Of a DNA stretch of 64,000 bases, positions 5,262 through 10,944 are shown in pieces. The notes beneath the pieces are model-generated. The model saw nothing but the letters and a program-made list of their open reading frames with translations, was not told the origin of the DNA and made no database searches. The translations under genes and the position numbers were made by a program. The stretch is from Actinomycetes bacterium (GTDB lineage Bacteria; Bacillota; Sulfobacillia; Sulfobacillales; JAIMBI01): positions 124,001 to 188,000 of the forward strand of contig JAIMBI010000001.1 of the NCBI GenBank assembly GCA_023565505.1, given 5' to 3'. The number at the start of each line of letters is the position of its first letter. The stretch's first letter is position 1.

Positions 5262-6366
5262 CATCCTGAGGTCGGTCGGTACGGCGAGGACTCCGTTCCC
5301 GACGTCGACGGATTCCTTGACCGCGGCCCGGCGTGGGCGGGATCCCGGATCGCGGCGCGGTGCAGGCGCTCGTCGGTGGCCATGCGGTCCTCGGCCATCC
5401 CGGGGGACGGCACGGCCTCGCCGTTCCCGTAAACGCCTTGGCCGGTGTCGGAGTGCCTGGGCCGCACGGTGACGCCGCGTCGGCCGTGGGCTCGTCGCCC
5501 CGGGATGCCGCCCGCTCCCGGGGCGACGCGTTTGCCGGCGGCCGGCCTGGGTGCACGCCTGCGGCAGGTGCCGAGCCTCTCGATGTTCCCGTCGAGACGG
5601 CCACGCTTCCTTCCCTGGTGCATCGGCCCGTCACGCGGCGGATGCCTCCGCGATGGTCGGCCCTCCGCCACCTTCGACCCCCAGGCCGACGGGGGTATGA
5701 CAGGCCCCGCCTCCTTCTTCCGTAGCCAACGCGAGCCGGCGGCTCGACCCGCCGGGCGACGCGGTGTAGCCGGGAACCCGGTACCAGGCCGGCGTCCGAC
5801 GGGGTGAGGGTGACCGAAGGGGGAGGCCGCCTTCGCGGCTGGGGCGGGGTTTGTGATACGCTCGGACCAGGAGAGAGCCGCGGATGGCCGCGCTACGCAC
5901 CGAACGGCCGCGCGCGTGAGGGAGACTCCCGGCCCACCCGTAAGGCGTCGAAGGGGTGCTGACTGCCGTGCCCCCGGGCCCCGGACCGACAGGTCCTGAT
6001 GGGCCGGCGCGGAGGCAAGGGGTGCGGGAAGCATGGCGGAACCCGGCCCGAGTCCCGCCCCCGTGCGCCGTCGGTGCGCGCCTGGCCGCCTGCCTGGGTA
6101 TCGGACTTTCGGGGGCCGCCGGCGGATTCCCGACGCTGCCCTGACCGACGCCGTCGCGTGGCGTAAGGCGTCGGACACGATCCTGGGCGCATGGCGAGAC
6201 CACCGCGATACCCGCTGCGACGGTGGAGCGGATACGGGCTACACTCGGGGCGGTCCGCGGCGGATCGGGTGGCGTGGGGCGGAACGACCGCCGTCGGTCG
6301 GGCGGACGAGCGGGACGCGACCGGACCGCGGGCGGGCGCGGCGAGAACGGAAGGGGGGCTCGGGCG
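5262..6366 (+). other. Gene-poor 1.1-kb region downstream of icd
   Basis: No credible coding sequence on either strand between icd and hemQ. Open frames are low-complexity Arg/Gly/Pro shadows. Strings such as GCCGGGAACCCGG, followed by CCGGCG and then GGGTGACCGA, also occur in the stretch before icd. The two flanks may therefore be related decayed copies of one element. I see no transposase, tRNA or recognisable riboswitch here. Confidence 0.45.
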
Positions 6367-7113
6367 GTGAGCGAAGCGGTGGAAACCCTTGACGGATGGC
6401 ATGTCCTCCACGATTTTCGCCGAGTGGACTGGGATGTTTGGACGGCGTGGACGGACCGGGAACGGCGGGACGCCCTGGAGGCCTTCCAGGCCCTGTGGGC
6501 GGACTGGGCGGCGGTCGACCGGGCCCGATCCGGCAGCTTCGGCGCCTACCAGGTGGTGGGGCACAAGGCCGACCTCCTGCTCCTGCACTTCCGCCCCACC
6601 TTGGGCGAACTGGTGGACGTCAAGTTCCGGCTCGACAAGACGCCGATGGGGCGGGTCCTGCGTCCGGCCTCCTCGTACCTCTCGATCGTCGAGTTGTCGA
6701 AATACCTGGCCCAGGGCGACGCCGATCCCGCCACCAACCCGTATCTCAAGGCCCGCCTGGAACCGGCCGTCCCGGACAAGCAGGCGGTCTGCTTCTACCC
6801 CATGTCCAAGCGGCGGCAGGGGGCCGACAACTGGTACATGTTGGACCGCGAGACGCGGGCCCGGTTGATGCGGAGCCACGGGACCATCGGGCGCCGGTAC
6901 CACGACCGGGTGATCCAGATCATCTCCGGCTCGCAGGGTCTGGACGACTGGGAATGGGGGGTGACGCTGTTCGCCGACACCGCCCTCGACTTCAAGAAGC
7001 TGGTGTACGAGATGCGCTTTGACGAGGCCAGCGCGCGTTACGCGGACTTCGGCCCCTTCTACGTGGGGACGCGCGTGGACTTCGGAGACGTCGAACGGCT
7101 GCTCGCCGTCTGA
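6367..7113 (+). CDS. hemQ: Coproheme decarboxylase HemQ/ChdC
   Basis: Chlorite-dismutase-fold enzyme of 248 residues that oxidatively decarboxylates Fe-coproporphyrin III to haem b, the last step of the coproporphyrin-dependent pathway of Gram-positive bacteria. The proximal haem ligand is the His in RLMRSHGTIGRRY (about residue 171). The radical-forming Tyr is in VCFYPMSKRR (about residue 144). The GTG at 6367 precedes SEAVETLDGWHVLHDFRRV, the usual HemQ N-terminus. It heads a tightly packed operon with hemE, hemH and hemY, which settles its role as haem synthesis rather than chlorite detoxification. Confidence 0.95.
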   Translation: MSEAVETLDGWHVLHDFRRVDWDVWTAWTDRERRDALEAFQALWADWAAVDRARSGSFGAYQVVGHKADLLLLHFRPTLGELVDVKFRLDKTPMGRVLRPASSYLSIVELSKYLAQGDADPATNPYLKARLEPAVPDKQAVCFYPMSKRRQGADNWYMLDRETRARLMRSHGTIGRRYHDRVIQIISGSQGLDDWEWGVTLFADTALDFKKLVYEMRFDEASARYADFGPFYVGTRVDFGDVERLLAV

Positions 7114-7129
7114 GGAAGGAGGGGCCGCA

Positions 7130-8161
7130 ACGCAGGCCGATCGCTTTCTCCGGGCGTGCCGCGGGGAACCCCACGACACGGTGCCGGTCTGGTTCATGCG
7201 CCAGGCCGGGCGGTACCAGCCGGAGTATCGGGCGCTCCGGGAACGCTACAGCCTCCTCCAGATCGCGTTGAATCCGGCCCTGGCGACGGAGGTCACGGTC
7301 CGGCCCGTCGAGGCGTTCGGGGTCGATGCCGCCATCCTGTTCTCCGACATCATGGTCCCCCTGGGGCCGCTCGGGATCCGGTACGAGATCCAGGAAGGCG
7401 TCGGTCCCGTGGTCCCGGACCCGATTCGGACGGGAGCCCAGGTGGCCCGACTGGGCGAACTGGATCCCGCCCGCGATCTGCCGATGGTCCTCGAGGCGGT
7501 GGAGCGCATCGTCGCCCGGTTGCACGGCGTTCCGCTCATCGGGTTCGCCGGTGCCCCCTTCACCTTGGCCAGTTACTTGGTCGAAGGCCAGCCGACGCGG
7601 CAGTACGTCGCCACCAAGCGGCTGATGTGGTCCGACCCCGCGACGTGGGGCGCTCTCATGGACGTCCTGGCCGAGACGGCCGTCCGGTACCTGACGGCGC
7701 AGATCCGCGCGGGGGCGCAGGCTGTCCAGCTCTTCGACAGTTGGGCCGGCGCGCTTTCGCCTGCTGACTACCGGCAGTATGTCCTGCCCGCCACCCGCCG
7801 CATCTTCGCCGGTCTGGCCGAACTGGGCGTGCCCCGCATCTACTTCGGCGTCGGGACCGGTTCGCTGCTTGAGCTGATGCAAGCCACGGGCGCGGACGTG
7901 GTGGGGGTCGACTGGCGTACCCCGCTGCCCGAGGCGCGGCGTCGCCTGGGACCGGGGACGGCGCTGCAGGGCAACCTCGACCCGGTCGCTCTGCTGGCGC
8001 CGTGGCCGGTGTTGGCGGCGGCGGCCGACCGCATTCTCACGGCGATGCGAGGGGACTACGCCTTCGTGTTTAACCTCGGCCACGGCGTCCTGCCCGAGAC
8101 GGACCCCGAGCAGGTCCGGCGGCTGGTGGCCTACGTGCATGACCGGGGAGGCGCCGCGTGA
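7130..8161 (+). CDS. hemE: Uroporphyrinogen decarboxylase, apparent ACG start
   Basis: Decarboxylates uroporphyrinogen III to coproporphyrinogen III. The family N-terminus is intact (RFLRACRGEPHDTVPVWFMRQAGRYQPEYR), and FSDIMVPLGPLG, FAGAPFTLASYLVEG and FNLGHGVLPETDPE follow, giving about 343 residues. No ATG, GTG or TTG lies between the hemQ stop and this conserved start. The Shine-Dalgarno AAGGAGGGG at 7117-7125 is ideally spaced from an ACG codon at 7130 (ACG-CAG-GCC-GAT-CGC), so ACG is the best start. The alternative is a start inside hemQ, for which no suitable codon exists in frame nearby. The stop overlaps the hemH start. Confidence 0.93.
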   Translation, partial: TQADRFLRACRGEPHDTVPVWFMRQAGRYQPEYRALRERYSLLQIALNPALATEVTVRPVEAFGVDAAILFSDIMVPLGPLGIRYEIQEGVGPVVPDPIRTGAQVARLGELDPARDLPMVLEAVERIVARLHGVPLIGFAGAPFTLASYLVEGQPTRQYVATKRLMWSDPATWGALMDVLAETAVRYLTAQIRAGAQAVQLFDSWAGALSPADYRQYVLPATRRIFAGLAELGVPRIYFGVGTGSLLELMQATGADVVGVDWRTPLPEARRRLGPGTALQGNLDPVALLAPWPVLAAAADRILTAMRGDYAFVFNLGHGVLPETDPEQVRRLVAYVHDRGGAA

Positions 8162-9087
8162 AGGTCGGCGTGTTGCTGATGGCCCACGGTGCGGCTCGGG
8201 GCCTGGACGACATCCCGCGCTACTACGCCCACATCCGTCACGGGCAGCCGCTGTCGCCGGCGGTGCTGCGCGAACTGAGCGACCGGTACCGGGCCATCGG
8301 GGGTTACTCGCCGCTTCACGAGATCACGGCGGCGTTGGCGCGCCGCCTGGCCGGGGTGCTGGGGGTCAGGCCGGGGGTGGTCGACTGGCATGTGTATCAT
8401 GGTTTTCGCCATGCGCCGCCGTTCATTGCCGACGCCGTGGCCGCGATGGCAGCCGACGGGGTGCAGCGGGGGATCGGTGTGGTGCTGGCCCCCCACGACT
8501 CGGCCCTGAGCGGCGGGCGCTACCGGGCCGCGGCCGAGGAGGCGCGGGCCGCGGTGGACGGAGCCCCGCCGTTCACCTACGTCGCCTCCTGGCACTTGGA
8601 ACCCCGCCTTGTCCACCTCCTGGCCAGCCGGGTGCGCGAGGCGCAGGCGTATTGGCCGGAGGCGGAACGCGACGCCGTGCCGGTGGTGTTCACGGCCCAC
8701 AGTCTGCCGGAACGGATTCGGGCGGAGGGGGACTCGTATGCCGACCAAGTCCGTGCCACGGCGCGGGCCGTGGCCGACCTGGCCGGCTTGGCGGCCTGGG
8801 AGGTAGCCTGGCAGAGTGCCGGGCGGACGGGCGAGCCGTGGATGGGTCCGGACATCCTCGAGGTCGTCGACCGCCTGGCGGGAGAAGGCCGGCCGGGGGT
8901 CCTCGTCTGCCCGCTCGGATTCGTGGCGGACCATCTGGAGGTCCTGTACGACCTGGACATCCAGGCGGCCGCCGCGGCTGCGGCCCGCGGGCTCCGCTGG
9001 CGCCGAACGCGGTCGCTGAACGACGATCCGGCCCTGGCGGAGGTTTTGGCGGACATCGTGGAACGAGAGGTGGTGCTCCGTGCCTGA
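8158..9087 (+). CDS. hemH: Coproporphyrin III ferrochelatase
   Basis: Inserts ferrous iron into coproporphyrin III (CpfC activity in this pathway type). The protein has 309 residues. The catalytic His is in VVFTAHSLPER and the acidic pair in GFVADHLEVLYDLD. The N-terminus KVGVLLMAHGAARGLDDIPRYY is typical. The GTG start overlaps the hemE stop by four bases, and the gene overlaps hemY by eight, indicating translational coupling. Given hemQ and hemY next to it, coproporphyrin rather than protoporphyrin is the probable substrate. Confidence 0.95.
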   Translation: MKVGVLLMAHGAARGLDDIPRYYAHIRHGQPLSPAVLRELSDRYRAIGGYSPLHEITAALARRLAGVLGVRPGVVDWHVYHGFRHAPPFIADAVAAMAADGVQRGIGVVLAPHDSALSGGRYRAAAEEARAAVDGAPPFTYVASWHLEPRLVHLLASRVREAQAYWPEAERDAVPVVFTAHSLPERIRAEGDSYADQVRATARAVADLAGLAAWEVAWQSAGRTGEPWMGPDILEVVDRLAGEGRPGVLVCPLGFVADHLEVLYDLDIQAAAAAAARGLRWRRTRSLNDDPALAEVLADIVEREVVLRA

Positions 9088-10495
9088 GTTGGCCGTCGTG
9101 GGGGCGGGGATCGCCGGGCTCGCCGCCGCTCGCCGGTTGGTCGAACGGGCGCCCGCCGGGACAGTCGTGCATGTGTTCGAGGCAAACGCTCGGGCCGGGG
9201 GTGCGATTCGGTCGGAGATCACGGCCGGGGTGGTGCTCGAAGCCGGCCCGGACTCGCTGTTGACGCGCAAGCCGGCGGCGGTGGAGCTGTGTCGGGCGTT
9301 GGGGCTGGCGGACGAACTCATCGGGCCCGCGCCGGGCGCGCGCGGTGCCGACATCTTCTGGGCCGGGCGGCTCCATCCCATCCCGCCGGGCCTGATGGCC
9401 GGCGTGCCCTCGCGCCCCGAAACCCTGTGGCGCAGCGGACTGCTCTCGTGGTCGGCCAAGTTGCGCGCGTTGGCGGACCTCTGGCGGCCGCCGAAGCCGA
9501 CCGAGCCGGATGCCAGCCTCGGCGAGCTGTTGGCCTACCGGTTCGGCCCCCAAGTCGTGGACCGGCTGGTCGCGCCGCTTCTTGCCGGGATTTATGCGGG
9601 GGACATCCGCACCTTGAGTCTCAAGGCGACCTTCCCCCAGTTGGCCGCTTGGCAGGACCAGTACGGCAGTCTCATCCGCGCCGCCCGCCGCCAGCCGCCG
9701 CCCGCCGGCCACCGGGGGCCTCCCTTTCTCACCCTTCGGACCGGGTTGGAGCGCATGGTCCGGGTGCTGGTCGAAAAGACGTCGGCGACGTGGCATTTCG
9801 GCGAGCCGGTGCGCCGGGTGGTGCCCGAAGGCGGGGGATTCCGTCTGGAGACGGACCGTGGCCGGTACGCGGTGGACGGCTTGGTGCTGGCCACACCGGC
9901 CCCCCGCACCCGGGAGATGCTGGGCGAAGCGGTGCCCGAGGCCGGCGCATTGTTGGCGGAGATTCCCTATACGGATCTGGCGGTTGTGGGGCTCCTCTTC
10001 CGCCCGGCGGCTTTTTCGCCGCCGCGGGACAAGACGGGGGTGCTGGTGCCGGCCGGCCAAGGTCTCGCCCTGACGGCGGTCACGTTCGTCGGGTCGAAGT
10101 GGGCGTACCCGGAGCCTCCTCCGTACGAGGCGGTGCGGGTGTTCCTCGGCCGGGCCGGGGACGCGGGCTTGCTCGAGCACGACGACGACGCCCTCGTGGC
10201 TCGCGCCCGGGCGGAATTGGAACGGGTGCTGGGGGTGCGCGCCGAGCCGGAGACCGCCCGGGTCTTCCGGCATCCGGCCGGAATGCCCCAGTACCGGGTC
10301 GGGCATCTTGATCGGGTGGCGCGGCTGGAACAGGTGCTGGCCCGGTGGCCGCAGCTGAGGCTCGCGGGCCAGGCCTACCACGGCGTCGGCATCCCGGACA
10401 ATGTCGCGGACGGGCACCGGGCCGCCGACGCGGTGTTGGCGGCCGTGGGGGCCGCCGTGCCGGTCGCTCTGGGGACACGGGGGGATGGAGCATGA
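9080..10495 (+). CDS. hemY: Coproporphyrinogen III oxidase / protoporphyrinogen oxidase family
   Basis: FAD flavoprotein of 471 residues that oxidises coproporphyrinogen III to coproporphyrin III (CgoX role). The FAD-binding start ELAVVGAGIAGLAAARRLVER and the ARAGGAIRSE segment are present. The C-terminal FAD motif is LRLAGQAYHGVGIPDNVADG. The GTG start lies within the hemH end, and the stop overlaps the next ATG (ATGA), so the downstream selenoprotein gene is in the same transcript. Membership of the HemY/CgoX family is clear. The product assignment follows from the accompanying hemQ. Confidence 0.94.
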   Translation: MPELAVVGAGIAGLAAARRLVERAPAGTVVHVFEANARAGGAIRSEITAGVVLEAGPDSLLTRKPAAVELCRALGLADELIGPAPGARGADIFWAGRLHPIPPGLMAGVPSRPETLWRSGLLSWSAKLRALADLWRPPKPTEPDASLGELLAYRFGPQVVDRLVAPLLAGIYAGDIRTLSLKATFPQLAAWQDQYGSLIRAARRQPPPAGHRGPPFLTLRTGLERMVRVLVEKTSATWHFGEPVRRVVPEGGGFRLETDRGRYAVDGLVLATPAPRTREMLGEAVPEAGALLAEIPYTDLAVVGLLFRPAAFSPPRDKTGVLVPAGQGLALTAVTFVGSKWAYPEPPPYEAVRVFLGRAGDAGLLEHDDDALVARARAELERVLGVRAEPETARVFRHPAGMPQYRVGHLDRVARLEQVLARWPQLRLAGQAYHGVGIPDNVADGHRAADAVLAAVGAAVPVALGTRGDGA

Positions 10496-10944
10496 CGGAG
10501 GATCCCGGGGACCGGCTGCCGCCGTTCTCCGCCGTGGACTTGGAGGGACGGCCGGTCTCGGCTGCGGCGCTGGAGCGGGACCCCACCCTGGTGGTGCTCC
10601 TCCGGGGTCTCGGCTGACCCTACTGCCGACGGGAGCTCAGGGAGCTTCAAAGCCGTGTCGCCGGATGGCGGGCGAGGGGTCTGACCGTTCTCGTGGTGGC
10701 CCCGGACCCGGCGGAGGTGGTTCGCCGGTTCTGGATCCGGGAAGGCCTCGACCTGTGGGTGGTGGCGGACGCCGGGCTGCTCCAAGTCCTGGGACAGCCG
10801 CGGCGGTGGTGGCCGGGTCGCCTGCCGGCCCTGCTCGCCGTCGCTCCCGGCGGCACGGTGGTCTGGCGACACCTCGGACGCAGCATGCGCGATCTGCCCG
10901 ACTGGGAGCAGGCGGTGGCCGCGCTCGCGCCCTGGCTCAAGTGA
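10492..10944 (+). CDS. Selenocysteine-containing peroxiredoxin-like protein (UxxC), TGA at codon 42
   Basis: Redoxin-fold protein of 150 residues read through one in-frame TGA (10615-10617). The N-terminus DRLPPFSAVDLEGRPVSAAALE and the beta strand LVVLLRGLG lead straight into U-PYCRRELRELQ, so Sec42 is the first position of a UxxC redox motif. The frame then stays open to 10944 (LTVLVVAPDPAEVV, LLAVAPGGTVVW), exactly the rest of an AhpC/TSA-like fold. A hairpin follows the TGA by 14 nt. The ATG overlaps the hemY stop (ATGA), so it is translated with the haem operon. The likely role is thiol-dependent reduction of peroxides, perhaps protecting haem synthesis; this is inferred. The end overlaps the convergent panE-like gene by eight bases. 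Confidence 0.88.
10632..10648 (+). promoter_or_regulatory. SECIS-like hairpin of the peroxiredoxin-like gene
   Basis: GGAGCTC-AGG-GAGCTTC forms a seven-base-pair stem (one G-U pair) with a three-base AGG loop, 14 nt after the TGA. Bacterial SECIS elements are short stem-loops just 3' of the UGA inside the coding region, and this one fits that layout. SelB recognition is inferred. Confidence 0.55.

Follow-up and report, generated by a model that had tools for sequence, protein, structure and literature searches.

The window analysed here is a stretch of 64,000 nucleotides. On its plus strand, the haem genes hemQ, hemE, hemH, and hemY are followed by a single 150-residue frame of the AhpC/TSA fold (10492-10944), which has one in-frame TGA at codon 42, within a UxxC motif. 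The features of this region are as follows.

6223..7113, + strand: hemQ, H2O2-dependent haem synthase (NF008913, 335 bits)
7019..8161, + strand: hemE, uroporphyrinogen decarboxylase (TIGR01464, 421 bits; match from residue 43)
8158..9087, + strand: hemH, ferrochelatase family (TIGR00109, 194 bits)
9080..10495, + strand: hemY, protoporphyrinogen/coproporphyrinogen oxidase, its stop overlapping the start of the next gene (TIGR00562, 222 bits)
10492..10944, + strand: putative selenocysteine (Sec)-containing AhpC/TSA-fold (Prx-like, UxxC) redox protein (translation; Pfam; TGA shared by 30/30 best-matching genomes)
10615..10617, + strand: in-frame TGA, predicted Sec, residue 42 (TGA in 30/30 genomes and in 47/61 loci, the remaining 14 having a Cys codon)
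10624..10626, + strand: Cys45 of the UPYC motif, putative partner of Sec42 (translation; invariant 30/30)
10633..10647, + strand: SECIS-like hairpin with loop AGG (10639-10641) between arms 10633-10638 and 10642-10647 (pairing beyond codon usage; register controls)
10825..10827, + strand: Pro112, invariant (30/30), aligned with the Pro of ResA PLPTT and with the Arg of thiol peroxidase (profile alignment)

All four haem genes were identified by their NCBIfam models, each over cut-off. Since the family match of hemQ covers residues 50-295, its true start probably lies at about 6370. The hemY stop (TGA, 10493-10495) shares four bases (ATGA) with the ATG at 10492, and the gene order on this strand is hemQ-hemE-hemH-hemY-prx. 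Both the four-base overlap and the place at the end of hemQEHY therefore agree with the preliminary description of this DNA. The next gene on the 3' side, 2-dehydropantoate 2-reductase, lies convergently on the minus strand and ends at 10937, giving an 8-base 3' overlap (10937-10944).

The translation of the frame (MTEDPGDRLPPF...VVLLRGLG-U-PYCRRELREL...WLK) ends at the TGA 10942-10944. In Pfam, the AhpC-TSA match of the read-through product (E 7.4e-14) runs from residue 5 to residue 125 and so spans the internal TGA; Redoxin is matched as well (E 3.2e-12). This match, together with homologues that continue past the TGA, bears out the earlier view that the fold is intact on both sides of a TGA at a UxxC position. 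Frame openness was rejected as evidence for a selenoprotein: the window is GC-rich, and long open frames often follow a TGA in it, with at least 108 open codons after 223 of 1070 TGA triplets (six frames).

Homologues and gene neighbourhoods

Homologues were sought in 151 genomes (its own and 150 relatives), and matches at E<=0.001 were obtained in 70. Codons were read in the best 30 of these 70, one per genome and including the window (L020-L049, E 8e-97 to 6.5e-18). All 30 have TGA at codon 42, followed by P[YFH]CR, and the other 29 homologues are 32-49% identical to the window protein across both sides of the TGA, running on past it rather than ending there. In the other 40 genomes the matches are weaker; some contain a TGA and many do not. 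The coding status of the TGA is decided by this homology and not by frame openness. A TGC or TGT misread by sequencing is unlikely as well, because TGA recurs in 29/29 other genomes read.

A wider scan of named genomes, using a pattern that omits residue 42, returned 100 stretches, 61 of them relatives. Position 42 is encoded by TGA in 47 of these loci, by TGC in 13, and by TGT in one. The 24 closest loci, all with TGA, belong to Sulfobacillus and Bacillota metagenome genomes; their Sec-flanking sequences coincide with ones among the 30 described above, of which they are therefore not independent. The Cys forms, found in Ensifer, Rhizobium, Variovorax, and others, are distant relatives. Twenty-three loci (L074-L110) from Myxococcota, Acidobacteria, Rokubacteria, Dehalococcoidia, and other records likewise encode Sec forms of the UPxCR protein, and their hairpins are supported in the same register.

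Regarding the neighbourhoods, haem genes lie within 8 kb in 4 of the 61 homologous loci, none of them adjacent (flanks are shorter than 8 kb at contig ends), and no haem gene was found within up to 8 kb on each side in the other 57. Conserved linkage, taken as a test for a component of the haem pathway, is thus not observed. The four loci belong to one sister genus, in which hemY and the gene are on the same strand and the gene lies 3.5-3.7 kb downstream. The interval contains methyltransferase, VIT1-like, FAD-oxidoreductase, and GNAT genes (named by eye), several of them on the opposite strand. In a further sister genus, hemY is followed by VIT1 and/or GNAT (L113, L114), and the homologous gene, where present (G001), is on another contig. 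A VIT1-like and/or GNAT gene after hemY was likewise seen in L057, L058, L060, and L062; neither gene was found in the 64 kb window. Deletion of the intervening genes in the lineage of the window is just one possible reading. The tree of the 30 homologues does not place the window protein within its order, so it does not decide between ancestral adjacency and loss of these genes.

Direct adjacency to hemY was therefore seen in the window genome only, among the surveyed neighbourhoods, and looks like a local peculiarity of the lineage. The linkage is thus local, and a haem role for the protein is hypothetical.

H2O2 is a product of HemY-type oxidases and a substrate of HemQ. A selenium peroxidase devoted to the coproporphyrin branch of haem synthesis would remove the H2O2 coming from HemY and hold that used by HemQ at a safe level, with the operon setting the enzyme ratio. 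The ATGA overlap, the last place in hemQEHY, and the same-strand position downstream of hemY in four sister-genus genomes are all consistent with such an enzyme. However, we regard it as unlikely given the 57 loci without a haem gene, the genes that intervene in the sister genus, the same-family relative G003, which has hemY and no match to the protein, and the absence of the canonical peroxiredoxin residues. The protection of haem synthesis, HemQ included, from peroxide that was proposed in the preliminary description is thus weakened and unproven. It is unlikely, too, that a Se-dependent redox enzyme was recruited into the coproporphyrin-dependent haem pathway of this lineage. Such an enzyme might adjust the H2O2 that HemY produces and HemQ consumes, or hold a thiol of the haem pathway in its reduced state, and UGA decoding would make this step responsive to selenium supply.

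Active site and related families

Residues R38, U42, C45, and P112 are each invariant (30/30). Profile alignment to solved structures pairs Sec42 and Cys45 with the two Cys of the ResA CxxC, and Pro112 with the PLPTT proline. In thiol peroxidase 2cx3, the counterpart of Cys45 is the peroxidatic Cys, that of Sec42 the Ser three positions before it, and that of Pro112 an Arg. The AlphaFold model of the window protein has a mean pLDDT of 93. Its six best Foldseek matches are ResA-type thiol-disulfide oxidoreductases, after which the true peroxiredoxins Bcp, AhpE, and Tpx also rank high. As for family models, AhpC-TSA and Redoxin are matched by 25/25 aligned members, which, together with the UxxC motif, places the protein with the Prx-like UxxC type (pfam00578). 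The NCBIfam thiol-peroxidase and ResA models are each matched by 21/25 members, below cut-off or weakly.

Canonical peroxiredoxins carry PxxxTxxC/U and a conserved Arg (PMC13188914). This P-T-C-R signature is absent here, its four positions being occupied by R38, U42, C45, and P112, respectively, in 30/30 homologues. On these residues a canonical peroxiredoxin identity was rejected, and the term peroxiredoxin used in the preliminary description does not hold in its canonical sense. A PrxQ/Bcp-type peroxiredoxin whose peroxidatic Cys is replaced by Sec (TxxU) would agree with the Pfam AhpC-TSA and Redoxin matches and with the structural similarity to Bcp, AhpE, and Tpx. It is nevertheless very unlikely, as Sec stands at the Thr position, Cys45 at the peroxidatic one, Arg38 at the place of Pro, and Pro112 at that of Arg, without exception among the 30.

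The absence of the signature and the similarity of the site to ResA/TlpA favour a thiol-disulfide (selenenylsulfide) oxidoreductase, and judging from the alignments and the model the site is probably of this type rather than that of a canonical peroxiredoxin. Peroxidase activity is possible because of the high Foldseek ranks of Bcp, AhpE, and Tpx and the weak thiol-peroxidase model matches; peroxide is thus a possible substrate of the Sec42 protein.

Among known proteins, ResA and TlpA are the best structural neighbours, with aligned CxxC and Pro positions. They differ from the window protein, which has Sec for the first Cys and an N-terminus with no signal peptide or membrane anchor visible by eye. 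SelL carries a UxxU pair, in contrast to the UxxC of the window protein. Of the NCBIfam models, that of the SelL-related redox protein (NF040769) fits the window protein best and is matched by 25/25 aligned members; with 47.7 of 120 bits, however, the window protein stays below the curated cut-off. Sec peroxiredoxins with the TxxU motif (PF00578), as described in the available part of PMC13188914, share the Pfam domain, whereas in the window protein Sec occupies the Thr position of that motif and not the peroxidatic one. According to PMC7409299, Sulfobacillus thermotolerans upregulates a Sec peroxiredoxin, PrxU, on arsenopyrite concentrate.

Prx-like UxxC selenoproteins are already catalogued. 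The accessible portions of the respective sources list UXXC forms from the Sargasso Sea (PMC1088965), 'Prx-like 1' UxxC in GOS data (PMC2398784), and Prx-like thiol:disulfide oxidoreductases (pfam00578, UxxC/UxxU) in review tables (PMC13188914 table 1, PMC9312934), in line with the earlier statement that bacterial Prx/Trx-like UxxC selenoproteins exist. As far as these portions describe them, they share with the present proteins the AhpC-TSA domain, a UxxC of thioredoxin-like type that contains the Sec, the existence of Cys homologues, and the lack of TxxU; the likeness to the representative WP_010940744.1 is one of description and not of direct alignment. The present set differs in its origin, which is Sulfobacillus-related Bacillota and, at greater distance, other phyla. 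A haem-operon position is not mentioned in the same portions of the four sources, and no selenoprotein tied to HemQ, coproporphyrin, or haem synthesis was found in the literature searched, which leaves most subscription papers outside and is no proof of absence. The arrangement had earlier been put forward as not previously described; this stands for the link to haem synthesis within that literature, but not for the kind of selenoprotein. What is unusual is the operon position.

Selenocysteine machinery and the hairpin

The window's own assembly contains selA, selB, selC, and selD: the scores are 561 bits for SelA, 357 bits for SelB (over cut-off), 367 bits for SelD, whose own frame has a TGA within SGUGCK, and 74 bits for tRNA-Sec (over the gathering score, anticodon TCA). 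A formate dehydrogenase alpha subunit (contig C38, L119) also has an in-frame TGA, at UHAPS, and scores 634 bits, just below the family cut-off of 666; one survey reports putative Sec formate dehydrogenases in all the Sulfobacillus genomes that it covered (PMC4378227). The assembly is a draft of 49 contigs with an estimated contamination of 6.6%. Contamination is an unlikely source of the machinery because these five genes lie on five different contigs and SelB is present in 6/6 other genomes searched in the same family. At E<=1e-70, SelB was found in 27/30 TGA genomes versus 74/121 others (one-sided Fisher p 0.0015, kinship ignored); the three TGA genomes with no SelB found at E 1e-70 are G040 (63% complete), G070, and G140. 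As side observations, at L009:540-1595 (contig C46) the tRNA-Sec gene begins 13 bases past the end of a same-strand cysteine synthase-like gene, and SelD (L017:1501-2427, contig C41) is a selenoprotein by its own sequence.

The loop (AGG) of the hairpin starts 21 nt after the TGA at 10615, and the stem in the window includes one G-U pair. Since the stem consists of the EL-x-EL codons (GAG CTC xxx GAG CTC), it is partly forced by the protein and was therefore tested against a null in which synonymous codons were sampled according to the usage at each locus (2000 draws, related sequences treated as independent). In 28 distinct sequences (L049 was left out beforehand), 163 of 168 pairs are formed versus 119.6 +- 4.4 under the null (maximum 135 in 2000 draws), and 23 of 28 stems are perfect versus 2.6 expected (null maximum 10). 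Shifting the 3' partner by 1-3 bases reduces the count to 27-90 pairs. Two-sided changes (G-C to C-G; G-C to U-A) are found at pairs 1 and 3, pair 1 being G-C, G-U, or C-G across the sequences, and in one sequence with CAT...ATG the residues are changed with the pairs intact. The 23 Sec homologues of other phyla form 121/138 pairs versus 99.9 +- 4.4, and the 14 Cys homologues show no pairing excess (56/84 versus 61.8 +- 3.4).

Bacterial SECIS elements are hairpins just past the UGA, with a G in the first two loop positions and the loop about 16-37 nt after the UGA. The present hairpin has these properties, with the loop at 21 nt, G in the first or second loop base in 28/28 sequences, and conserved pairs. 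Rfam, however, gives no SECIS match over threshold at the window hairpin and nine loci, and the window stretch yields only chance-level matches of other families. The folding energy of the window hairpin alone is not special (z -0.35, 66/200 shuffles equally stable). The hairpin reported earlier thus exists and is supported by the comparative pairing test, but not by single-sequence folding energy. Its stem and the EL-x-EL coding repeat are the same bases, and the constraints on protein and RNA are separable via codon choice.

Decoding of the TGA and proposed function

The TGA conserved in 30/30 genomes, with Cys at position 42 in other homologues, is the pattern expected of a bacterial selenoprotein. 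Together with the full Sec machinery and the conserved hairpin, it upholds the selenoprotein assignment of the preliminary description: judged from sequence evidence, the product is almost certainly a genuine selenoprotein with UGA 10615 decoded as Sec. The alternatives of a plain stop, an error of sequencing, or a pseudogene, which the single draft genome and the frequent open frames after TGA might suggest, are extremely improbable in view of the recurrence of the TGA in 30/30 genomes and 47/61 loci, the complete machinery, and pairing conserved beyond codon usage.

The explanation that we consider best overall, and fairly probable, is a Sec-decoded Prx-like thiol:disulfide oxidoreductase that forms a selenenylsulfide and whose gene lies at the end of the hemQEHY operon. 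SelB and tRNA-Sec would decode UGA 10615, directed by the hairpin with its three-base loop 21 nt downstream. In the resulting thioredoxin/peroxiredoxin fold with a Sec42-Pro-Tyr-Cys45 site, Sec42 would be the attacking residue, a Sec42-Cys45 selenenylsulfide would form during turnover, and a cytosolic thiol reductant would regenerate Sec42. The protein may thereby work as a Prx-like thiol:disulfide, and possibly also hydroperoxide, oxidoreductase. Its gene would have come to lie at the operon end in this lineage, where it is probably translated in coupling to hemY; this place would set its expression and by itself is no demonstration of a haem function.

If the haem link were true, selenium supply would feed into haem synthesis. 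The homologues described here add a well-supported Sec subfamily in Sulfobacillus-related Bacillota, and an annotation stopping at the TGA would reduce the protein to a 41-residue stub.
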